Positions 48,241-60,574 of a stretch of DNA of 64,000 nt are shown here, piece after piece (position 1 is the first letter of the stretch; each line of letters begins with the position of its first letter). The notes beneath the pieces are model-generated. The model did no database searches. It was given only the letters and a program-made list of their open reading frames with translations, and had not been told where the DNA came from. Position numbers and translations under genes: made by a program. Source of the stretch: Candidatus Hydrogenedentota bacterium. GTDB taxonomy: Bacteria > Hydrogenedentota > Hydrogenedentia > Hydrogenedentales > JAEUWI01. The stretch spans positions 92,964-156,963 of the forward strand of contig JACPGE010000056.1 of the NCBI GenBank assembly GCA_016182605.1, given 5' to 3'.

Positions 48241-50643
48241 TTACTTCTTGCGGCGCAGTACCACGGCGCCGGCAGCACCCAGCGCGCTGAAGAGCGCACC
48301 GAGGCCGACCATGCCGCCCACTGGAAGGGCAGGGTTGCCTTCCCAGAAGGGACCGAAGCCACCGGAGGCAGCGACGACGAAGTCGTCCTCATCGCCACCC
48401 TGACCCGAGATGATGGCAGCAACGGCAGCGTTGGTCAGACCATCGCCGTCAAAGTCGCCCGCACCCGCGAGGGGTTCGCCAGCAGTCTTCGCGGAATCCT
48501 GCAGCGCAACCCAGGCCGGCCACGCAAGCGGTGCAATGGCGCTGCCACCGGTGATCGCCGGAAGGTCTCCGGGGAACACAGCATTGAAACCGGCTGCGGT
48601 CAGAATCGCAGAGGCTTCCGTTTCCGGGCTGCCCGGGCACGCGCCACCCAGTCCGCCAAACATGGCGGGCAGGACAATCACACCCAGCAACTGGAAGATC
48701 TGATTCGGTGTGTCACGAAGCAGTTCGTCCAGACCGGCATTCAGGGTCAGGCCCAATTCGGTGCTGGTGGTACCCATACCGGCCAAAGCCTGGCCGTTGG
48801 CAGCGACAAGCACGTCCGCAAGACCCAGCAGACCGATATCGCCGGCCGAGTCGAGGACATCTTGCAGTACACCTGCGATGGAGGGAATGCCCAAGCCAGC
48901 CAGTGCGCCGTCGCAGGCAGCCGAAGCGCCGCCCGTGTCGAACTTCGCCTGCAGGGCAACGATATCAGCAAGCGCGCTACCCAAGCCCTGAAGGTGAGGC
49001 ACATAGTTGGCCGTGAGGTCGGCTACAGCAGCCGGCATGAGCGCCAAGTTGGCTTCATACGCAGCCGTGGCTTCCGACACGTCGTCAAGGGACTTGGCGC
49101 TGTCTTCGCAGATGGCCCAAGCCAGCAAGTGAAGCTGCCATGCATCCGGAACGCCGTCGCCGACGCCCAGTTCGTTGTCATCGTCGAAGCCGAAGCCGCT
49201 GAGCTGATCGAACTGCGCAGCGAAATCGTCGTCGATATCGCAAACTTCAAACCAATCCGGAACGGTGACCGTGAGGTCGATGTTGCCGGAAACGTAGTTG
49301 CCCAGGCCGGTGCCCGAAGCGACCGCAACGGTAATCGTCACGGTGCCCGCGCCCGTACCGGTCACCAGACCGGAGTTGTTGACGGTTGCGACGCCCGTGT
49401 CGTCACTCGTGTAGGTGTGCGTGTCGCCGACATCGCTGAGGGCTTCCAATTGCAGGGTGCCGCCCACGAAGAGTTCGGGATCGCCACCGCCATCAACCGT
49501 AACGACAACCGCATCGCCGAAACCATCCGGCACGCCGTTGAGATCTTCGTCAAAGAAAGAATCCGGAATGCCGTCCGTGTCCGCGTCGGCAAAGGTTCCA
49601 TCCAGCTTGTAGAAGAAACCCTGGGTGCCGCCGCCGAGGTCGTTCCAGGTACCGTCGTCGCGCATTTCCGCGAAGTCTTCGGTATTGCCATTGGGTTCGC
49701 CGTCGTTCCAGTTCGCATAGAGGCCGCCAACGGTAGCACCGGCAGCCTTGCCCTGCCAGAACTGGGCGTTGTCGCTGAGCCAGCGCCATTCGTCTTCAAC
49801 GGTCGCGTCGGAAGCGCCGATCCAGCCATCGTCGGGGGCGATGGAAAGCAGCCCTTCATTGAGCAGGGCCGTGCGGGGTTCTGCAAGCGAGTAGCCTTCC
49901 ACCGGAATACCGGCGATGGTTACCGACAGGCCGTCGCGCGCGGCTTCGAAGGTGAGGGCAGTCGCATCATAGCCATAGACGGAGTCCGTCGCGGCATCAT
50001 AGAAATGGGCCTTGAGGAAACCGAAGTTGCCGCAGGAACCGTAGTTGTCGTAGGCAGTGGCCGCCGTGCCTGCCGCGAAAGCATCGGCACGGTAAGCCGC
50101 TTCCGTACCCAAGCCGGCGAAGAACTCGTTGACGTTCTTCACGCCATCGCTGTCCGGATCGGCGCAGGGGCCGACATTGGTGTTCTGCGATTCGTCGTAG
50201 GCTTCGCGTTCCGGCGTCGTGTCCGCGCCGAAGGCTTCGCCCGAGCCCAGAACCGCCGCGACAACCGCCCAGTTATCGTCGCCACCGAGGGTCGCATAGC
50301 CCGCGATAACCGTCACGCCCGTCGGGAACGGAGTGGCCGCACCGGCGAAATCCGCTTCGGTTGCAGTGATATTGGTCTCCATGGCCGCAGTGACCGCAGC
50401 CGCGAAGGAGGCGCCGCCGTCGACGGCCTGCTCAATCAAGGCCAATTCGCTCAAGTCTTCGATGCCGTTCGCATTCAAATCGGCATCGGCGTTGAACACG
50501 TCCGCGCTGTCCGGGGCCAGTGCGCCAACCGTTGCATCGAAGCTCGCCATCGCCGCGGAAAAGTCCCACGGCGCTGCGGAGGCTGCACCTGGCACAATCA
50601 GCGCCAGACCCAGCAACAACGCAATCCATTTTTGCTTTAACAT
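48241..50643 (-). CDS. Large surface protein with C-type-lectin-like domain, Ca-binding repeats, Big_2 domain and C-terminal anchor
   Basis: An 800-aa protein. Signal peptide: residues 1-23 (MLKQKWIALLLGLALIVPGA). A C-type-lectin-like domain lies at about 230-347, with WIGASD, the Ca2+/sugar-binding EPNGNTEDF (316-324) and WNDL (333-336). Acidic thrombospondin-3-like repeats include DTDGIPDSFFDEDLNGVPDG. A Big_2-type Ig-like domain spans about 384-470. A long Ala-rich helical region follows. The end, GGMVGLGALFSALGAAGAVV then RRKK, is a sorting-type membrane anchor. The start at 50643 is fixed by the signal peptide. It probably binds glycans at the cell surface. A strong terminator follows. 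Confidence 0.75.
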   Translation of the reverse strand: MLKQKWIALLLGLALIVPGAASAAPWDFSAAMASFDATVGALAPDSADVFNADADLNANGIEDLSELALIEQAVDGGASFAAAVTAAMETNITATEADFAGAATPFPTGVTVIAGYATLGGDDNWAVVAAVLGSGEAFGADTTPEREAYDESQNTNVGPCADPDSDGVKNVNEFFAGLGTEAAYRADAFAAGTAATAYDNYGSCGNFGFLKAHFYDAATDSVYGYDATALTFEAARDGLSVTIAGIPVEGYSLAEPRTALLNEGLLSIAPDDGWIGASDATVEDEWRWLSDNAQFWQGKAAGATVGGLYANWNDGEPNGNTEDFAEMRDDGTWNDLGGGTQGFFYKLDGTFADADTDGIPDSFFDEDLNGVPDGFGDAVVVTVDGGGDPELFVGGTLQLEALSDVGDTHTYTSDDTGVATVNNSGLVTGTGAGTVTITVAVASGTGLGNYVSGNIDLTVTVPDWFEVCDIDDDFAAQFDQLSGFGFDDDNELGVGDGVPDAWQLHLLAWAICEDSAKSLDDVSEATAAYEANLALMPAAVADLTANYVPHLQGLGSALADIVALQAKFDTGGASAACDGALAGLGIPSIAGVLQDVLDSAGDIGLLGLADVLVAANGQALAGMGTTSTELGLTLNAGLDELLRDTPNQIFQLLGVIVLPAMFGGLGGACPGSPETEASAILTAAGFNAVFPGDLPAITGGSAIAPLAWPAWVALQDSAKTAGEPLAGAGDFDGDGLTNAAVAAIISGQGGDEDDFVVAASGGFGPFWEGNPALPVGGMVGLGALFSALGAAGAVVLRRKK

Positions 50644-51294
50644 AACTCTCAAGTTCCTCTCCAATGTTTCGGCCCGCATCCCCACGATGCGGACCAATTC
50701 GACTCAGGATGATTTCACTACAACTGGCTGCCCGGTGCTGGCTTCAGGCACAAGCCCTTCACCAACGTTCGTTCCGGCCGCCCCATAAAAACGATTCAAC
50801 TCTGCCTCAACGCGTCCGCGCCACTCCTTTTGCCCTGCTCCCAATTTCCCAAGATCGGCCAGGCCATTTTTAATGTGCTTGCCAGAACTGACAGACGGGC
50901 AGGAATACCGTCACTCTCTCCAGAAGCACAATAGCGTCGATCTTCCCTGCAGCCGACGGTGCCATTGCGGACCGCCGAATACTGGTCATGCTACTTTGAA
51001 ACGCGGGAATTTGCAAGCAAAATTTTCTGTAAGTCTGTACCGCAAACCGGTTTGCAAATACGCCCCGCACGCCGGGAGATTTGAAGTTTTTACGGTTTTA
51101 CTCGAAAAGTTGTATCCCATTGAAATTAAATGAGTTACGAATGGATTCCCGCATTGGTGCCTTCCGTTCACGGATTCCTCCGGAGTCCGGGCTTCAAGAA
51201 GAAATACAACCTGTATCCGGATTGCGCCATTTCGTATAATTGACCCTCGCCGCACGGGACCGATCTCACGGGCAACTTGGAAAGAAACTAGCGC
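50644..51294. other. Divergent intergenic region between surface protein and ROK kinase
   Basis: 650 bp with no supported gene. It contains a 14-bp perfect palindrome (51042-51055) and a TATAAT (51235-51240) about 55 nt before the ROK start, without a clear -35 box. Both neighbouring genes are read outward. Confidence 0.55.
51042..51055. promoter_or_regulatory. Operator-like palindrome GCAAACCGGTTTGC
   Basis: A perfect 14-bp palindrome with a central CCGG and A/T-rich shoulders, the general form of LacI/GalR-family operators. It lies in a divergent intergenic region 240 bp upstream of a sugar-kinase-like gene. No regulator gene is adjacent. Confidence 0.35.
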
Positions 51295-52303: not shown

Positions 52304-52777
52304 TTACTTGAGCTCCTCGAAGCTCTGCTGCAACGCCCGAATGTAGGTGTCGATCATTCCTTCGAACTCGTGCCTGAGCAGGGGCGCCACCACGATCTTG
52401 GCAAGCGCCGGGAGTTTGAGGGTGATCTCCGCCGTGGTGCTAAACTGCACGGCACATCCAACGGCGCCATTCTGGGAGATCTGCCACTCTCCCTGAATGA
52501 GGGCATTCCCTTCCCCTTCGACGGGGGTCCACCAGACGCGCCCGGCCTTCTTATCGGACATATATTTACAGGCATACTCGGCGCCGATGGCATAGCGGTC
52601 CAGGCCAATCTTCTCCATCTCCCAGTAGTAGGTGTTTTCACCCATATCGTAGAGGTTGGCCAGCTTCGGGAAGTGCCCTGCGGATTCCGGCACATCGGCG
52701 AGCAGTTGAAAGACCTTTTCTTTGCCACACAGGGTCTTGAAGTTCCGGCTGAGTTCCAGATGGACGGTCACAGACAT
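52304..52777 (-). CDS. SRPBCC (START-like) lipid-binding-fold protein
   Basis: A 157-aa protein. SVTVHLELSRNFKTLCGKEK, VFQLLADVPESAGHFPKLAN and the final long helix (LLRHEFEGMIDTYIRALQQ) match the SRPBCC/polyketide-cyclase fold, which makes a hydrophobic cavity. Location upstream of the lipid-storage genes suggests binding of a fatty acid or similar ligand; that is inference. The ATG at 52777 has AAGGGA upstream. It starts 13 bp after the helical-protein gene, so they form a two-gene operon. Confidence 0.75.
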   Translation of the reverse strand: MSVTVHLELSRNFKTLCGKEKVFQLLADVPESAGHFPKLANLYDMGENTYYWEMEKIGLDRYAIGAEYACKYMSDKKAGRVWWTPVEGEGNALIQGEWQISQNGAVGCAVQFSTTAEITLKLPALAKIVVAPLLRHEFEGMIDTYIRALQQSFEELK

Positions 52778-52790
52778 GGCGGAATCCCTT

Positions 52791-53546
52791 CTAGAGCGCC
52801 TCGGCATCTTGACACGCGGTTTGATACCAGTCGAATTCGATGGCTTCGATTCCCTTGATAATGCCGGGGAAGTGGCTGGGCTCAATATGGACGAAGAGCG
52901 CCAAGCCTCCTTCGACAACCTCCTTGCCGAGGGCAACGCCTTCGGCATCCTCGTCTGTAAAGAGTGCCGGGTGGTGTTTCATCGCGGCAATGAACTGATT
53001 CATGAGTTCGACGGCCACCCTGAGCATCTCTGTGTTGGAGAGGGCGTGAAAGAGCTTGAGGATGTCGTGAATGAGCCGTTCCACATCCTTGGCGGGCACT
53101 TCGGTGATAAGCCGGATCATGGTTTCGCGTCCCACCACGTCGCCGGCCGCTATTTTCAGCCGGGCCGCGCTCTCAAAGAGAAGGCCTTCGAGCTTCCGCG
53201 TTTCCCGGTAGGCGTCCACGGTGGCGGTGCCGGCGCTAATGGCGGAGGGGAGCTTTATGCCGAGCCGCCAGATGGTCTTGAGGGCAATGCTCATCAGGGG
53301 GCGCAAGTGGCGTGGGGAGGTGAGCACGATTCCAAGCCGGTCGATGGCATGGTCCAGCGCTTCCCGCTCCTTGATGGGGGGGTAGATGCGTTGGAGGAAG
53401 TACTCGCGCAGGGCGGCGATCTGTTCGTCGGGGATGGGATCGAAATCGGAGAAGCGGCGGACATTCTTGAGCTGGTAGCGGCGTTTCAGCTCGCTGCGGT
53501 AGAACTCAATGATTTTACGCTGTATTTCTTTTGAAACCGAGGCCAT
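52791..53546 (-). CDS. Helical protein of unknown family (operon with SRPBCC protein)
   Basis: A 251-aa, largely alpha-helical cytoplasmic protein: KEIQRKIIEFYRSELKRRYQ at the start, an amphipathic segment KTIWRLGIKLPSAISAG, and LIHDILKLFHALSNTEMLRV further on. No motif was recognised. The ATG at 53546 has GGGGA 9 nt upstream; an ATG five codons upstream (53561) lacks one. It lies divergent from the reductase-like gene and upstream of the SRPBCC gene, so it may serve the lipid locus. Confidence 0.7.
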   Translation of the reverse strand: MASVSKEIQRKIIEFYRSELKRRYQLKNVRRFSDFDPIPDEQIAALREYFLQRIYPPIKEREALDHAIDRLGIVLTSPRHLRPLMSIALKTIWRLGIKLPSAISAGTATVDAYRETRKLEGLLFESAARLKIAAGDVVGRETMIRLITEVPAKDVERLIHDILKLFHALSNTEMLRVAVELMNQFIAAMKHHPALFTDEDAEGVALGKEVVEGGLALFVHIEPSHFPGIIKGIEAIEFDWYQTACQDAEAL

Positions 53547-54074
53547 AGTCTGCATCCCCATGGTTGGGGGCCGTGTCCGGTCCTTGCCTGTGTCTCAAGC
53601 ACGAATTGGGCCAAAAATGTATGGGTGGCGGGGGACTCAAAGTGGGCCATAACGGGGGGGTGTAGCGGAGTAGGGCTATTGTAGCGGGACCCGCAGGCTA
53701 CAGATCTGCTCATGCGCAGGACGCATCTGCTCTATATCCAGCGTCATTCAGGGGCAATACGATGAAAAGCGCCCTGGAACGAAAATCGGTATCGAGCAGG
53801 GCCTTGCACGATAGGCAAGGTCTATTTCCGGCGCGGGTCAGTCGCTTTTGGGCGTTGTTTTGGGCTGTTTTTCCGGTATTTATGGCATCCGGCATGCCTT
53901 CGTATTCCCAACGTCCTACCCAGTTTCTGGGGCGTGGGGCGGGGCGGGGGGACTGGTTTTTCGGGCAAGGGTGCGAATTCGCAGGTTGGTATGATTAATG
54001 CGGCCCGTTTTTTGGAGTGGTATATCCCCCCAATGGCGGTGAAGGCTGGAGGGCAACGCGGGAGTGTTGGCGCC
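53547..54074. other. Divergent intergenic region
   Basis: About 530 bp. A weak TGTAGC/GCTACA inverted repeat lies at 53661-53702. A small plus-strand frame (53762-53998) has an AGGGG site but no recognisable features. No clear promoter was found. Confidence 0.4.
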
Positions 54075-55265
54075 ATGAAAACAGGCAAGCGGGTGTTTAT
54101 CACCGGGGCCACCGGCATCTTGGGCAATTGGGTGGTGGCAGAGGCCCTGGCCGGGGGGTATCGGCCCATGGTATTGATGCGGGACGCTTCAGAGGCCCAT
54201 GCGCGCGAGCGGCTGGAGCAGGCATTGCGTCTGGCGGGAAGCGCGGCGCCGGTGGAGGCTGTGGAGATTGTGCGCGGGGATGTGCGCCACCGGAATTTTG
54301 GGATGACGCGGAGCGCCTTCGAGCACCTGCGCACGCGCATCGATCTCGTGATACACGGGGCCGCGAGTGTGAGTTTCGATCCCAAGCAGGATGAGAATAC
54401 GTGGTTGACCAATGTGCTTGGGGTAACGCATGTGGTGGATTTGGTGGCGGACACGGGCATACCGCTCTATCACGTGAGCACGGCCTATGTGGCGGGCAAC
54501 CGCCTCGACTTGGTCCGGGAAGAGGAATTGGACGCGGGGCAGCACTTCAAAAACGCCTACGAGCGCAGCAAATTCGAGAGCGAGTACCTGTTGCGCGCAG
54601 CCTTCCGGGACCACACGATTAAGGGCGCGATACTGCGGCCGAGCATTATAGTGGGCGCGGTCCATGAAGGGCGCATCGCCCAGTTCTTCAATTTCTACGG
54701 ATTCATGCGGCTGGTGGATTGTGTCATGAGCGGGCGGGTGCGCCACAACGGGCGATTCAAGATTGCCCTTGAACCGCATTGCACGAAGAATTTGATTCCC
54801 GTGGACTGGGCGGCGAGGGCCATCTGGCGCATTATCGAGCATGAGGGTCCCAGCGGGCTGAATTACCACCTGACCCATCCTTCACCGGTGCCGCAAGGGG
54901 TGCTTATCGATTGGGCAAACCGTCACCTGCGCGAACATGGGGTATATATGGAGGCGGGTGTGGTGGAAGGGCATGGATCCAATTCCCTGGAGCGGCTCGC
55001 ACAACTTTCGCTCCGGCATTATGGATCGTACCTTGAGCAGGAGCCGCGGTTCGATCGGACGAACACCGATCGGGCGCTGGAGGGGATCTTGCCGTTTCCG
55101 GAGATGGGGATGGAGTTTTTTGACGCGTTATACCGTTTTGCCCGGGCGCACGATTGGTCGCATCCCGTGTTGATCGAGGAAAGGCCGCCAGCGCCAGGGC
55201 ATGGCCGGGCAGCCTGCACAGGGGAAGCCTGGGTAACGGCGGAACTGGCAGGCGCACCGGTGTAG
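54075..55265 (+). CDS. Extended SDR / fatty-acyl-reductase-like (NAD_binding_4) oxidoreductase
   Basis: A 396-aa protein. The Rossmann motif FITGATGILGNWVV is at the N-terminus. VIHGAASVSFDPKQDENTWL, HVSTAYVAGNRLD and the catalytic YERSK (NAYERSKFESEYLL) follow, as in the NAD_binding_4 (male-sterility) group that includes acyl-CoA reductases. GAILRPSIIVG closes the core. It could supply fatty alcohol or aldehyde for wax esters, but the sequence could also be a general SDR epimerase. The ATG at 54075 has GGGAG upstream. It heads a plus-strand run with the phasin and GNAT genes. Confidence 0.78.
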   Translation: MKTGKRVFITGATGILGNWVVAEALAGGYRPMVLMRDASEAHARERLEQALRLAGSAAPVEAVEIVRGDVRHRNFGMTRSAFEHLRTRIDLVIHGAASVSFDPKQDENTWLTNVLGVTHVVDLVADTGIPLYHVSTAYVAGNRLDLVREEELDAGQHFKNAYERSKFESEYLLRAAFRDHTIKGAILRPSIIVGAVHEGRIAQFFNFYGFMRLVDCVMSGRVRHNGRFKIALEPHCTKNLIPVDWAARAIWRIIEHEGPSGLNYHLTHPSPVPQGVLIDWANRHLREHGVYMEAGVVEGHGSNSLERLAQLSLRHYGSYLEQEPRFDRTNTDRALEGILPFPEMGMEFFDALYRFARAHDWSHPVLIEERPPAPGHGRAACTGEAWVTAELAGAPV

Positions 55266-55325
55266 CCGGGCGTCTGTGCGGCGCACACGAATGAGCGCGC
55301 AACACCTGAAAGGAGGGTGAAAGCC

Positions 55326-55853
55326 ATGACGGAACGGAAGAAGCATAAGGAAGCGGCGAAAGCCAAGGGCTATATGCCGGATCTGGAAAGCATAAACAGG
55401 AAAGCGGAAGACATCCGCGGAAAGATCAAGGAGCAGGCGGAGAAGACGAAGGACCAGACGATTCTGAAGTCAGCGGAACTAAGCATGGCGATGGTGGATT
55501 TTCAGAAGGCGACCTTTGACAGCACGCTGACGGTGATAGGCGAGTTGCAGAGCCACACGGACAAGATCATCGACAACATGGCCGCCAAGTCGGGGTGGCT
55601 GCCCAAGGAAGGCAAGCAACTGGTGCATGAATGGCTGAAGATGGCGCAGGCGGGGCGGCGCGAGTATCAGCGGACGGTGGACAAGAGCTTCGATCTGATC
55701 CTCGATTTCTTCGAACGGATGCAGAAAGAGCATACGGTTCACACGGCGCACAAGGCGCCCGCGCACAAGACGAATGGCAAGGCGGCGCCCAAGGCGAAGA
55801 AGAAAGCCGCGGCCAAGAAGAAGGTGGCCTTGAAGAAGCGCGTAGCTGCCTGA
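55326..55853 (+). CDS. Phasin-like protein with histone-H1-like lysine-rich tail
   Basis: A 175-aa protein. Residues 15-130 are long amphipathic helices with phasin-like periodicity (AMVDFQKATFDSTLTVIGEL; LVHEWLKMAQAGRREYQRTV). The last 40 residues are Ala/Lys-rich (KAAPKAKKKAAAKKKVAL), like the histone H1-type tail of PhaF. Such proteins coat lipid or polyester granules and may tether them to DNA. The ATG at 55326 has a perfect AAAGGAGG site 9 nt upstream, implying high expression. It lies between the reductase-like and GNAT genes. Confidence 0.78.
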   Translation: MTERKKHKEAAKAKGYMPDLESINRKAEDIRGKIKEQAEKTKDQTILKSAELSMAMVDFQKATFDSTLTVIGELQSHTDKIIDNMAAKSGWLPKEGKQLVHEWLKMAQAGRREYQRTVDKSFDLILDFFERMQKEHTVHTAHKAPAHKTNGKAAPKAKKKAAAKKKVALKKRVAA

Positions 55854-55883
55854 GACGGGCCGTGCTAGAAACAGGAGCCTGGC

Positions 55884-56447
55884 GTGAACAAGCCCTTGAC
55901 ACTGAACCGGACCTATCCTTTTGAACGCAGTTTCGGCGGACAGGCCATCGCCTTCCGCCTGATGACGGGCAAGGACAGGGCGCGTATCCTCAAGCTTGCG
56001 GGCAAACTGCACCACGAGGATCTTCTGTTTCTACGGATGGACATCACTCAAAAAGCGGTGGTGGACACCTGGTGCGATAACATCAAGCTGGGGCGGAGCA
56101 TTACGGTGTTGGCGGAGAATGCCAAGAATGAAGCGATCGGCTACGGCACGGTTCATCACGATGAACTGCTCTGGACCCGTCACTTGGGCGAGATGCGCCT
56201 GCTTGTGGCTCCCGATTACCGCAGTTGCGGTCTCGGGAAGGTCTTGGCCACGGAGCTGGCGCAGATCGCGGGGGCGCAACACCTGCAGCGCCTTGTCGTC
56301 CATATTCCGCGGGACAAGCCGCACGTCCAGCACATGTTGATCCGGCTGGGGTTCAACGCGGAAGCCTTGCTGACCGATTGGCTGATGGATCGGGAGGGAA
56401 AGCTGCACGACATGCTGGTGATGTCGCGGTGGCTGCACGAGTCTTAG
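55884..56447 (+). CDS. GNAT-family N-acetyltransferase
   Basis: A 187-aa protein of the GNAT fold. The acetyl-CoA loop is in RLLVAPDYRSCGLGKVLATE, and IPRDKPHVQHMLIRLGF forms the last helix and strand. The substrate is unknown. The GTG at 55884 has AGGAG 6 nt upstream. It follows the phasin gene by 30 bp, so it may modify the lysine-rich phasin tail; this is only a guess from position. Confidence 0.82.
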   Translation: MNKPLTLNRTYPFERSFGGQAIAFRLMTGKDRARILKLAGKLHHEDLLFLRMDITQKAVVDTWCDNIKLGRSITVLAENAKNEAIGYGTVHHDELLWTRHLGEMRLLVAPDYRSCGLGKVLATELAQIAGAQHLQRLVVHIPRDKPHVQHMLIRLGFNAEALLTDWLMDREGKLHDMLVMSRWLHES

Positions 56448-56610
56448 CTGCAATCGGCTGCTTATGGGGCCAGGCCGTTCCCGCCCGCGCACTTGGCATG
56501 GGCGGGAACGGCGCTTTTTGTTGCTGGAACCGTTTCGGCGCCGTGGCATGGGCGAATGCAGCGACGCTCCCGCCGCGGCAGTGCATTCCGGGGGCGGGGG
56601 AGGCGTGGCG

Positions 56611-58140
56611 TCAATGCTGGGTGACGCAGGCTTCCTGGGGGGCCTCTTTGGGCGGCGTTGCGCTCCGGCCGGAGCGCGTAATTTGAATGTACTTGGCCGT
56701 GCTGACGGCGGCGGCATTGCGGAGCGCCTCGGCTTCGGCGGCCATGTGTTGCATCAGGAGCGCGGCTTCCGGCGCCACGGTTTTGTCCGCAATGAAGGAA
56801 ACCGAAATCTTCTGGTCGTAACTTAGAATCCCGCAATTGATTCCCATGTCGAGACAGACCGGTAGCATGACATTGATGGAGGTGAGCCGGTGTCCGGCAC
56901 AATAGAGCGGGAACTGGGGTCCGGGAACGTTGGTGCAGATCATGTGGGCCAGGGGAATGAGGGAGAAGGCGCCGAGGAGACGCTGCACGGCGGCGTTGCC
57001 GCCCGTGGAAAGCGCCATGGACTGCACGGCGGCGGTATTGGATTGCAGGGCCTCGAAGAGCAGATTGACCGCGTGCGCAATGTTGGCGGTCTTCATCTCC
57101 TGCGTGCGCAGGTGAATGGCATGGAGGCGATCCACCGGGTCCGCAATATCGAGGTTGACGTCGATCGGCAGGAAGGAGATGTGGTTGCCGATGGCGCCGC
57201 GCTCTGCCTCATTGCGGATGTTCACCGGGGCCAGAATGCGGAAGGTCTTCGATTTCTTGAGATAGGCCGGGGCGCGCTCTTCCAGGTAGCGCCGCACCGC
57301 GCCGGCTATGATCGTGAGCACGATGTCGTTCAGCGTGCCCCCCAGGACCGCCCGGATCGCGCGGAACTCGGCAAAACTGAATTCGGTCCAAGCGATGACG
57401 CGTTCGTTGGAGCGGGTTTTGTTGAAGGGCATGTGACGGATGGGGAGCATAAACTCCGTCATCGTCTTCAAAAAATGCTGCACACCATTGCCCCATTCGC
57501 CCTCCTTGAAGGAGGAGAAGTAGGATAGGGCATTGCGTTGCAGGTGCGTCCAGTGCCGGACGGCGCCAATGGCGGAATCCCAGACCTCTTCCGTGACGCG
57601 CGTGGGGCCGGTGCGCGGTGCGGCCGGGACAAAGGGGACGGCCTTTGCCGGAGGCGCGTCGGCCGAAAGATCGAAGAGGACGAGGGCCATGCTGACGCCC
57701 GCGACACCGTCGATCATGGCATGATGCACCTTGAGTATCATGGCGGAGTCGCGCCGGTTGAAGCCGTGGACGAGATGGATTTCCCAGAGTGGCTTGCCGC
57801 GGTCGAGCATGCCGCTGAAAATCTTTCCCGCGAGCGCGTGCAGGTCTTCCAAGGCGCCGGGCGCGGGAAGGGTGTGCAGGAAGACGTGGTTCTCTATTCT
57901 GAAATCCGGGTCATCTTCCCAAACCGGATGGTGCAGGTTGAGGGGAGAAGAAAGCAGTTTCTGGTAATAGCGGTGGAAGTGACCGATCCGGCTCTCAATG
58001 TGCCGGCGGAATTTCTTGAAGGGGATCTTCCCCTCGAAGGTGTTCACGGAGCCGACATGCATGGGCTGCTGTTCGTTCTCCAGGTAGATGAAGAAGGCAT
58101 CCATGGGGGAGAGCCGATCGGATTCCGCTACGCTGCTCAT
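56611..58140 (-). CDS. WS/DGAT wax ester synthase / diacylglycerol acyltransferase
   Basis: A 509-aa bifunctional acyltransferase. The catalytic motif HHAMIDG is at residues 139-145; PLWEIHLVHG (117-126) and the family's N-terminal LSPMDAFFIYLENEQQPMH are present, as is NVPGPQFPLY. It esterifies acyl-CoA with fatty alcohol or diacylglycerol to make wax esters or triacylglycerol. The ATG at 58140 has AGGAAG upstream; TTG at 58146 is a poorer option. A candidate promoter lies at 58188-58216. Neighbouring genes suggest a neutral-lipid storage role. Confidence 0.93.
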   Translation of the reverse strand: MSSVAESDRLSPMDAFFIYLENEQQPMHVGSVNTFEGKIPFKKFRRHIESRIGHFHRYYQKLLSSPLNLHHPVWEDDPDFRIENHVFLHTLPAPGALEDLHALAGKIFSGMLDRGKPLWEIHLVHGFNRRDSAMILKVHHAMIDGVAGVSMALVLFDLSADAPPAKAVPFVPAAPRTGPTRVTEEVWDSAIGAVRHWTHLQRNALSYFSSFKEGEWGNGVQHFLKTMTEFMLPIRHMPFNKTRSNERVIAWTEFSFAEFRAIRAVLGGTLNDIVLTIIAGAVRRYLEERAPAYLKKSKTFRILAPVNIRNEAERGAIGNHISFLPIDVNLDIADPVDRLHAIHLRTQEMKTANIAHAVNLLFEALQSNTAAVQSMALSTGGNAAVQRLLGAFSLIPLAHMICTNVPGPQFPLYCAGHRLTSINVMLPVCLDMGINCGILSYDQKISVSFIADKTVAPEAALLMQHMAAEAEALRNAAAVSTAKYIQITRSGRSATPPKEAPQEACVTQH

Positions 58141-58187
58141 GGTCAATCTTCCTGTCCGGTTCGCGATGCGCGGGGAATAGCCCCTTT

Positions 58188-58216
58188 AGTATAAGTTAGC
58201 CTGGCGAATAACACAA
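58188..58216 (-). promoter_or_regulatory. Sigma-70-type promoter of the WS/DGAT gene
   Basis: On the minus strand, TTGTGT (58216-58211), 17-bp spacer, TATACT (58193-58188), about 45 nt upstream of the ATG. The -10 box is 5/6; the -35 box is weak. Confidence 0.45.
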
Positions 58217-58279
58217 TACAATTATCGTGCCAAGCCCGCTGGAAGCGGGTGAAAAATAAAGGATTGATCTTTATGCTTC

Positions 58280-58309
58280 AGAAGCCCTACTCTTGAACCG
58301 GGCTGCTAG
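58280..58309. repeat. AGCAGCCCG hairpin repeat, degenerate copy 3
   Basis: AGAAGCCC faces GGGCTGCT, with a loop TACTCTTGAACC close to the ACTCGAAC core of copy 2. It lies between the divergent WS/DGAT and hydrolase genes. Confidence 0.45.
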
Positions 58310-58348
58310 GCTGGCCGTTGCGGTTGAGACACGGAGAGGAGTGCCTTT

Positions 58349-59215
58349 ATGTATCACAAGAGTCCAGTGGCCGTGGTGGAGGAACCGGAGCATTTCCGGC
58401 TTCCCCTGTGGAAAGAAGGCTTTTGCGGGCTGGACTTGTTGCGCTTGAAGGTTTCCCGGGTCTATTCGGGGCGCCATTGCCCCAAGGGCGATGGGAGCCC
58501 GGTGGTGGTGGTGCCGGGCTATCTGGGCTGCGATCTCTACCTTGTGGAACTCTATTGCTGGCTGGAGCGCATCGGCTATGCCCCGTATTTTTCCCGGATT
58601 GGGCACAATGCGGAGTGTCCCGACATTTTGACCCAGCGCCTCGTGCGCACGATAGAGCGCGCCCACGCTGAAACTGGAATGGCCGTACATTTGGTGGGCC
58701 ATAGTCTTGGCGGTGTTTTTGCGCGGAGCGCGGCGGCGTGCGTTCCGGATAAAGTCGCTTCGGTCATTACGTTGGGTTCGCCATTCTGCGGGGTGCGCGT
58801 GAATCCTTGGGTGCTGCGTTCCGTTTCGCTGCTTCAGGCCAGGCTCCGGTTCCGGGGGCGGGGGAAGGATTGTTTCACAACCCGTTGCGCATGCGGCTTT
58901 TCCTGCCGTATGCGGGACATTTTCCCCGAGGGGATTCCGCAGACGGCGGTTTACACGAAGAGCGATGGGGTTGTGGACTGGCAGGTGTGTATCAATGGTA
59001 ACCGCGATACGGATTTCGAAGTGAGCGGCACCCACACGGGCCTCGTGTGGAATGCCAAGGTTTATACGCTGATTGCAGACCGTCTCGCGTTGGCGGTTTC
59101 CCATCAGGCTGCGGCGGCAGTCAAGCAGCGGGCCAATGGGGAGCAGCTCTCTCGTGCTCCCCGCGTGCGCGCAGCAGCGCTGAAAGGCACGGGAGTACGG
59201 CCTGCGGTGCACTAG
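58349..59215 (+). CDS. Alpha/beta hydrolase (lipase/esterase type)
   Basis: A 288-aa protein. The nucleophile elbow VHLVGHSLGG places the serine at S119. The acid is probably in YTKSDGVVDW (D206 or D210) and the histidine in SGTHTGLVW (H229). VVVVPGYLGCDLY forms the oxyanion-hole segment. No signal peptide is seen, consistent with intracellular turnover of stored esters. The ATG at 58349 has GAGGAG 7 nt upstream. It is divergent from WS/DGAT, so synthesis and hydrolysis of the lipid may be paired. A hairpin repeat contains its stop codon. Confidence 0.82.
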   Translation: MYHKSPVAVVEEPEHFRLPLWKEGFCGLDLLRLKVSRVYSGRHCPKGDGSPVVVVPGYLGCDLYLVELYCWLERIGYAPYFSRIGHNAECPDILTQRLVRTIERAHAETGMAVHLVGHSLGGVFARSAAACVPDKVASVITLGSPFCGVRVNPWVLRSVSLLQARLRFRGRGKDCFTTRCACGFSCRMRDIFPEGIPQTAVYTKSDGVVDWQVCINGNRDTDFEVSGTHTGLVWNAKVYTLIADRLALAVSHQAAAAVKQRANGEQLSRAPRVRAAALKGTGVRPAVH

Positions 59216-59283
59216 CAGCCCGCACATTTCACCACTTGCAGGGTCAATGCGCGAGCAGATATTCGGAGCGCGGTGAAATGTGC
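59212..59283. repeat. AGCAGCCCG hairpin repeat, larger variant at the hydrolase stop
   Basis: The left arm begins CTAGCAGCCCG and continues into GCACATTTCACC (59222-59233), which pairs perfectly over 12 bp with GGTGAAATGTGC (59272-59283). The TAG stop of the hydrolase lies in its first bases. It shares the arm sequence of copies 1 and 2 but has a different, 38-nt loop. Confidence 0.6.
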
Positions 59284-59656
59284 TCAGCGTGACGATGGCG
59301 CTGGCGCTGGCGCTGGCGTTCGCCGGGCAGGCTAAATCACGGGCTGTCTGGCGATGCCGCCGTGCATGTTGTGGCCATTGTGGGTCTAAGAAGGAGTTAC
59401 GGAAGAGATGCTTGGAGCCCGCGATTGATCCGGGCTGGTTCTGAGCACCTTTGATACTGCCGATGAGCAGTCTTGCTCATTGGCGCGCGAAGCCGGCCGG
59501 TATGGGCAACGTTTTCGTGAGTCATCCCGGCCGTGTGCCGCCGGTGGCGGGTGGGAGCGCGCCGAACACCGTGGAAAGCGAATCCCTTCAAAAACTTGCG
59601 CCCCCCCATGAGCCCCCCCTATACTCTGCGCCGAATTCACGACAGGAAGGCTGAGC
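59216..59656. other. Intergenic region with repeats, before the prepilin peptidase
   Basis: About 440 bp holding the rest of the hairpin repeat, a short GGCGCT tandem run (about 59297-59318) and copy B of the 30-bp dispersed repeat (59410-59439). No gene is supported. Confidence 0.55.
59410..59439. repeat. 30-bp dispersed repeat, copy B
   Basis: GCTTGGAGCCCGCGATTGAT and onward; 26/30 identity to 44896-44925, with an AGCCCG/CGGGCT palindrome. Confidence 0.6.
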
Positions 59657-60574
59657 ATGGACCTTGCGGCGACACTGGCCCCATTACATAACTTTTTCCT
59701 CATAGTATCCTTTGTGTTTGGCGCCCTCGTGGGCAGTTTCGCCAACGTGTGCATTGGGCGCTGGCCCCACGGTGAATCGGTGATTTCCCCCCGTTCGCGG
59801 TGCCCGAAGTGCAAGAGCCTGATCGCCTGGCACGACAATATTCCGATGCTGAGCTGGCTGCTGCTGCGGGCGCGCTGCCGGAACTGCGGATTGCCGATTA
59901 GCTGGCAGTACCCGGCCGTGGAGTTCATTACGGGCCTGCTTTTTCTGCTGGTCTTCTGGCGCTTTGGATTTGCCGCGGCAAGCCCCATTTATATGGGCAT
60001 CTGTGCCGCGCTCGTGATTGTGACTTTCCAGGATCTCACGGACTGGACCATCCCCAATGAAATCACCTTTCCGGGCATTTTCCTTGGGCCGGCCTGCGCG
60101 CTGATAGGCATGACCATGCCCGAGACTAGTGGCTTGCGCGTGACCGATCCCCTGGACGCCCTGGCAGGGCTTTTTCTGGGGGGGGCTATTCTCTATTCCC
60201 TCGACCGGATCACCGTGCTGCTCTTGAAGAAACCCGGAATGGGCTTCGGCGATGTGAAGCTTCTGGCCATGCTGGGGGCCTTTCTGGGCTGGTGGGGGGT
60301 CCTCTTTATCGTCATGTTCGCCAGTATTATTGGCACGATTGCCGGCGGGCTCACCATCTTCTATTTCCGGAACAAGGCGGATTCGCCGGGGGAGGAGACG
60401 GCAGAGAGCGACACTCGGGAAGAGGATGCCGACGGCATTAGCCTGCAAGGGCATTACCTGCCCTTTGGCCCGTACCTGGCGCTCGCGGGTTTGCTCTACC
60501 TCTTCGTGGGGCCGGAGATGATCCAATGGTATATTGCCACGCTGACCCCGGCTCCCCTGGATGCCGCATTATAG
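59657..60574 (+). CDS. pilD: Type IV prepilin peptidase / N-methyltransferase
   Basis: A 305-aa membrane protease that cleaves and methylates prepilins. The N-terminal cytoplasmic zinc site is C49/C52 (RCPKCKSL) and C74/C77 (RCRNCGLP). The catalytic aspartates are D126 (QDLTDWTIPNE) and that in KKPGMGFGDVKLLA (GFGD). A 40-residue acidic loop near 245-285 is an unusual insert. The ATG at 59657 has AGGAAGG upstream. It could process pilins or pseudopilins encoded elsewhere. pilD is a convenience symbol; gspO is equally apt. Confidence 0.93.
   Translation: MDLAATLAPLHNFFLIVSFVFGALVGSFANVCIGRWPHGESVISPRSRCPKCKSLIAWHDNIPMLSWLLLRARCRNCGLPISWQYPAVEFITGLLFLLVFWRFGFAAASPIYMGICAALVIVTFQDLTDWTIPNEITFPGIFLGPACALIGMTMPETSGLRVTDPLDALAGLFLGGAILYSLDRITVLLLKKPGMGFGDVKLLAMLGAFLGWWGVLFIVMFASIIGTIAGGLTIFYFRNKADSPGEETAESDTREEDADGISLQGHYLPFGPYLALAGLLYLFVGPEMIQWYIATLTPAPLDAAL

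Follow-up and report, generated by a model that had tools for sequence, protein, structure and literature searches.

A conserved gene cluster in Hydrogenedentota with the features of a neutral-lipid storage locus

Introduction

To our knowledge, most bacterial droplet proteins described so far come from Actinomycetota, and a literature search for neutral-lipid storage in Hydrogenedentota found no report. A 64,000-nt stretch of Hydrogenedentota DNA, referred to here as the window, contains at positions 52304-59215 a WS/DGAT acyltransferase gene surrounded by genes for a lipase-type hydrolase, a phasin-like protein and four other proteins. Does this cluster constitute a dedicated locus for neutral-lipid storage, or is it an assembly of ordinary neighbours? 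Our analysis favours a real, conserved and dedicated storage or droplet locus, with a probability of roughly 0.8.

Results

Composition of the locus

The original prediction, which was made from the sequence alone, had placed seven ORFs in this region. All seven were found, and the SDR had the length claimed for it (Table 1). The coordinates and strands also bear out the proposed divergent pairing of WS/DGAT and lipase, which are separated by 202 nt, while the SDR, phasin-like and GNAT genes follow one another on one strand, spaced 51 and 30 nt apart. A scan for promoters and terminators gave signal that was not above that of shuffled sequences. Outside the cluster, positions 48241-50697 of the window encode an 818-aa protein with a Big_2 domain, whose C-terminal hydrophobic segment and basic end resemble a sorting signal.

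Table 1. Features of the candidate storage locus, in coordinates of the window
Feature	Position	Strand	Length (aa)	Remarks
SRPBCC (START-like) lipid-binding protein	52304..52777	-	157	
All-helical protein	52791..53561	-	256	Family about 250 aa; upstream partner of the SRPBCC gene
NAD_binding_4 SDR, proposed fatty acyl-CoA/aldehyde reductase	54075..55265	+	396	GATGILG and YxxxK motifs
Phasin-like granule protein	55317..55853	+	178	Helical hairpin (47-91, 97-145) and 42-aa tail
GNAT N-acetyltransferase	55884..56447	+	187	Acetyl-CoA motif RxxGxG
WS/DGAT wax ester synthase/diacylglycerol acyltransferase	56611..58146	-	511	HHAMIDG, PLWE and NDIVL intact
Alpha/beta-hydrolase lipase	58349..59215	+	288	GHSLGG nucleophile elbow; S119, D206 and H229 invariant

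The WS/DGAT assignment, for which TIGR02946, PF03007 and PF06974 are the family models, was upheld by the curated model TIGR02946 (355.7 bits, above the cut-off of 309.95), by a WS_DGAT_cat match of 187 bits and by an intact HHxxxDG motif. The enzyme is present as a single copy in the genome and would make wax ester and/or TAG. A well-supported branch sets the cassette WS/DGATs of the phylum apart from their counterparts in other phyla, and the nearest WS/DGAT outside the phylum comes from a Thermoanaerobaculia genome. One relative (G010, locus L045, 7362-10445) has a 1028-aa ORF in which the WS/DGAT domains occupy the C-terminal half and are preceded by approximately 540 residues without a Pfam match. 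The lipase gave only a weak alpha/beta-hydrolase match in Pfam, and its assignment as a lipase-type hydrolase stands on the GxSxG/Asp/His triad and on its nearest solved structures, which are true triacylglycerol lipases of the Burkholderia/Pseudomonas type (E 5e-8).

Conservation of gene order and co-occurrence

Conservation of gene order in relatives, the main check proposed for the locus, was found within the phylum. The 68 genomes of the phylum considered here all belong to one order, which, like the GC content of 60%, would be compatible with Hydrogenedentota. In G047, a member of another family of that order (f11), all seven slots recur with the order and orientation of the window read backwards: lipase (-), WS/DGAT (+), GNAT (-), phasin (-), an FcrA-like gene (-), helical protein (+) and SRPBCC (+). 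The six homologous proteins are 37-56% identical between the two loci, the exception being the slot between the phasin and helical genes, where G047 has a homolog of HMG-CoA reductase instead of the SDR. Partial versions occur in other genomes: GNAT-phasin-SDR-helical-SRPBCC, with the SDR included, in G014; GNAT-phasin-helical-SRPBCC, without a reductase, in G070; lipase-WS/DGAT-GNAT-phasin in G008; and smaller subsets in G042, G032, G035 and G017.

Co-occurrence was assessed by Fisher tests in 60 genomes (the window's own and 59 others), with a lipase counted if it scored >200 bits; as the genomes are not independent, the p-values given here serve as guides. WS/DGAT and the lipase had identical distributions, both being present in the same 12 of the 60 genomes (nine genera, six families; p=7e-13, by genus 5e-9). 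The GNAT was present in 12/12 WS/DGAT carriers and 5/48 non-carriers (p=4e-9), and the phasin-like protein in 11/12 and 15/48, respectively (p=2e-4). The helical protein, found in 27/60 genomes, co-occurred with WS/DGAT at p=0.02 and with the phasin-like protein at p=1e-6. No association with WS/DGAT across the phylum was detected for the SDR (4/12 versus 12/48, p=0.40).

A proposed acyl reductase and the stored product

The SDR had been predicted to be acyl-reductase-like, and the NAD_binding_4 support sought for it was obtained: its best Pfam match was to this family (PF07993; 142.7 bits over the full profile) versus 76.4 bits for Epimerase, which rules out a sugar epimerase. The GxxGxxG and YxxxK motifs are present as GATGILG and YERSK. 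There was no match in the SDR to the Sterile C-terminal domain (PF03015) of FarA-type enzymes, and the full AcrB/PRK07201 architecture was not recovered, with 124 bits against a cut-off of 549 through the N-terminal part only. The best PDB match is the thioester reductase MxaA, and a second copy of the SDR is encoded elsewhere in the window organism's genome.

A class-I HMG-CoA reductase homolog lies between the phasin and helical genes in G047 and between the phasin and WS/DGAT genes in G049. HMG-CoA reductase homologs termed FcrA have been shown to convert long-chain acyl-CoA into the fatty alcohol used in wax esters, and in them Ser684 is replaced by Glu, Leu862 by Trp and the pocket Lys by a small residue (PMC11948995). 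The homologs in G047 and G049 have Glu at the Ser684 site, Trp at the Leu862 site, which lies four residues ahead of the catalytic His, and Ala at the pocket Lys site, and both copies thus bear the FcrA signature of a class-I HMGR fold with these three replacements. The gene is absent from the window, where the SDR occupies the slot between the phasin and helical genes, as it does in G014. Since an unrelated FcrA-type acyl-CoA reductase fills this slot in G047, the probable role of the SDR in the window organism is to provide fatty alcohol or aldehyde, and wax ester would therefore be a likely product beside TAG. This reductase swap is the best evidence for the role of the SDR, and it is good though indirect.

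The strongest competing explanation, which we consider a real but lesser possibility, is that the locus makes TAG only, with WS/DGAT acting as a DGAT and the SDR being an unrelated neighbour that reduces thioesters or other carbonyls. This would be consistent with MxaA being the closest structure, with the lack of association between the SDR and WS/DGAT, with the absence of this SDR from 8/12 WS/DGAT genomes and with its location apart from WS/DGAT in G010 and G033, but it leaves unexplained the FcrA-type fatty acyl-CoA reductase in the SDR slot of G047, the SDR in the same slot of G014 and the NAD_binding_4 affiliation of the protein. We therefore lean towards wax ester as a product in the window organism. 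Thus, the predicted acyl-reductase-like character of the SDR is retained on the basis of family and slot, while its lack of co-occurrence with WS/DGAT rules out that the cluster always requires it.

A phasin-like protein with a lysine-rich tail

The original prediction had named a phasin with a DNA-binding-type tail and had made a match to phasin models a test of this name, which the protein failed: no match to PF05597, PF09361, PF09602, TIGR01837 or TIGR02131 was obtained. Sub-threshold matches to PhaP_Bmeg (2e-3) and Phasin (4e-3) came from single relatives. A fold search with the hairpin returned generic helical bundles only, none below E 0.001, and profile comparison with the granule proteins of Caballeronia and Novosphingobium detected no kinship. 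The part of the prediction that stands is the architecture and its setting. The protein is predicted to form a helical hairpin followed by a disordered tail (pLDDT 80 without an alignment), helix 97-145 is amphipathic to a degree reached by 1% of shuffles, and the last 42 residues are Lys/Ala-rich, with 13 Lys, a tail that is kept in most relatives. It is therefore a small helical amphipathic protein encoded near a granule synthase, here WS/DGAT, and we describe it as a phasin by context rather than as a family member because no curated model was passed.

A protein of this kind could instead be mainly nucleoid-associated and histone-H1-like, with a secondary link to neutral lipid. Members of the family do match HC2/histone-H1-like models through the tail, and 15 of the 26 genomes that carry the family are without WS/DGAT; there, judging from sequence reading, the gene has unrelated neighbours, lpxK and holA among them. 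This explanation nevertheless appears improbable, as the conserved part of the family is the amphipathic hairpin and not the tail, the protein is encoded mostly near WS/DGAT in the genomes that have both, and the tail alone occurs on WS/DGAT in G035. We thus retain a granule role, in which coating of droplets and tethering to DNA are plausible.

Several further observations concern the tail. In G010 and G033, the phasin copies beside WS/DGAT (L095, L096) have a basic N-terminus and no C-terminal Lys tail, while second copies beside the GNAT keep the basic tail. In 1.16 Mb of loci, 24 Lys-tailed ORFs were counted (one of them twice), and all were phasins, WS/DGATs or SRPBCC proteins, a count that is descriptive because these genes had guided the choice of loci.

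The GNAT and possible tail acetylation

The predicted GNAT was substantiated by a Pfam match of 38 bits and by a conserved acetyl-CoA motif of the form R/QxxGxG/A (RSCGLG, with R113, G116 and G118 conserved). Its closest NCBIfam models include small-molecule and protein acetyltransferases alike. In most WS/DGAT-bearing relatives the gene adjoins that of the Lys-tailed granule protein. In G035, where no phasin was detectable, the Lys-rich tail is carried by WS/DGAT itself, whose gene lies between two GNAT genes, and in a Thermoanaerobaculia (Acidobacteriota) genome a Lys-tailed WS/DGAT is followed by a GNAT homolog. As the GNAT adjoins a tailed WS/DGAT in both cases, acetylation of the tail is a reasonable idea; it is weakened somewhat by five f11 genomes in which the GNAT gene is instead located close to the helical gene and, in the neighbourhoods that were read, has no phasin gene next to it. 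That the GNAT is dedicated to acetylating the Lys-rich tails of droplet proteins, and that acetylation frees droplets from the nucleoid, is for now a speculative proposal drawn from gene arrangement. If it were true, tail acetylation would couple droplet tethering and the breakdown of the stored lipid to the supply of acetyl-CoA.

The SRPBCC/helical pair

The SRPBCC label was corroborated by Polyketide_cyc2 matches of relatives and by a full-length match of the window copy to PDB 3p9v (E 6e-52), which we take to be Maqu_3174 of Marinobacter. Relatives of this protein (L134, L141, L142) carry Lys/Ala-rich, phasin-like tails, and the window copy is without one. As a marker of storage in Gammaproteobacteria the SRPBCC protein was ruled out, its relatives there lying near his genes. 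The helical protein matched no Pfam family, and its single-sequence structure model had a pLDDT of 42, too low to be of use. Plasmid searches with the SRPBCC, phasin-like and helical proteins returned no matches.

The cluster and its flanking genes

The genes flanking the cluster in the window (ROK, A24 peptidase, PMI) are not companions of WS/DGAT in relatives, while the cluster genes are, which indicates that the conserved order is not background synteny. Despite the membership of the genes in common superfamilies and the absence of WS/DGAT from all six other genomes of the window organism's family (0/6), a chance neighbourhood of ordinary genes is highly improbable, because the order recurs between families at about 40% identity, with no such conservation of the flanking genes. 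In G011 and G013 (L119, L120), which lack the cluster, the SDR gene directly adjoins the A24 prepilin peptidase gene, and in the window (54075-60574) the phasin-GNAT-WS/DGAT-lipase genes sit between the two. This arrangement suggests insertion of a cassette between the SDR and A24 prepilin peptidase genes.

Discussion

The gene content of the locus, its intact catalytic motifs, the conserved order, the co-occurrence of its genes, the swap of reductases and the swap of the tail between coat protein and synthase together argue for a locus dedicated to neutral-lipid storage. We propose that WS/DGAT would esterify acyl-CoA to fatty alcohol and/or diacylglycerol, the alcohol (or aldehyde) probably coming from the SDR. 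The phasin-like protein would coat the droplet via its amphipathic hairpin while the Lys/Ala-rich tail contacts DNA, and the composition of this tail hints at partitioning on the nucleoid. The divergent lipase would mobilise the stored lipid, the GNAT would modify granule proteins, most likely at tail lysines, and so loosen the tether, and the SRPBCC/helical pair probably serves to carry acyl lipids or pass them on.

This conserved and self-contained locus of an uncultured phylum provides a defined set of genes with which wax or fat droplets could be rebuilt in E. coli: acyl-CoA reductases that can replace one another, a coat protein with a Lys tail, a lipase whose distribution follows that of the synthase exactly, and a GNAT. 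Tethering of droplets to the nucleoid and its possible control by acetylation become directly testable, and two uncharacterised families, those of the helical protein and of its SRPBCC partner, are brought to attention.

Among known systems, the tail resembles in composition that of MLDS from Rhodococcus jostii RHA1, a droplet-coating protein whose Lys-rich C-terminal region binds DNA without sequence specificity and requires the tail lysines to do so; mlds forms an operon with the regulator gene mldsr, whereas the coat gene of the window is grouped with WS/DGAT, lipase, GNAT and acyl reductase genes (PMC5504291). The pairing of WS/DGAT with a fatty acyl-CoA reductase, of the FcrA type in the G047 locus, recalls the FcrA/FarA/AcrB wax ester pathway, and the available portion of that report describes reductase-WS/DGAT(-FadD) neighbours and does not describe a coat protein or GNAT in these loci (PMC11948995).

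PHA granule loci, with phasin, PhaM/PhaF-type DNA-binding proteins and depolymerase, follow the same logic of synthase, basic-tailed coat and hydrolase, but have a polymer synthase where WS/DGAT stands here. PhaC_N was absent from all 60 genomes, with a positive Caulobacter control, and PHA storage was thereby ruled out. On Novosphingobium pNL2, a lipase of the window-lipase family adjoins PhaE-PhaC-GNAT. Caballeronia plasmids carry a lipase-phasin-WS/DGAT trio; in that of plasmid p1 (L210) the three core functions are adjacent, with 36% and 28% identity to the window lipase and WS/DGAT, but the phasin is Phasin_2-like, is without a Lys tail and has no detectable kinship to that of the window. 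The Thermoanaerobaculia genome with the Lys-tailed WS/DGAT has phasin, lipase and WS/DGAT in a row elsewhere. Beside the Acidobacteriota phasin-lipase pair (G060, L247, 1954-2574), the WS/DGAT has HQALVET, not HHxxxDG. The Thermoanaerobaculia and Caballeronia trios and the pNL2 locus suggest a locus logic common to wax/TAG and PHA granules; only in the phylum of the window was the locus observed with all seven genes.
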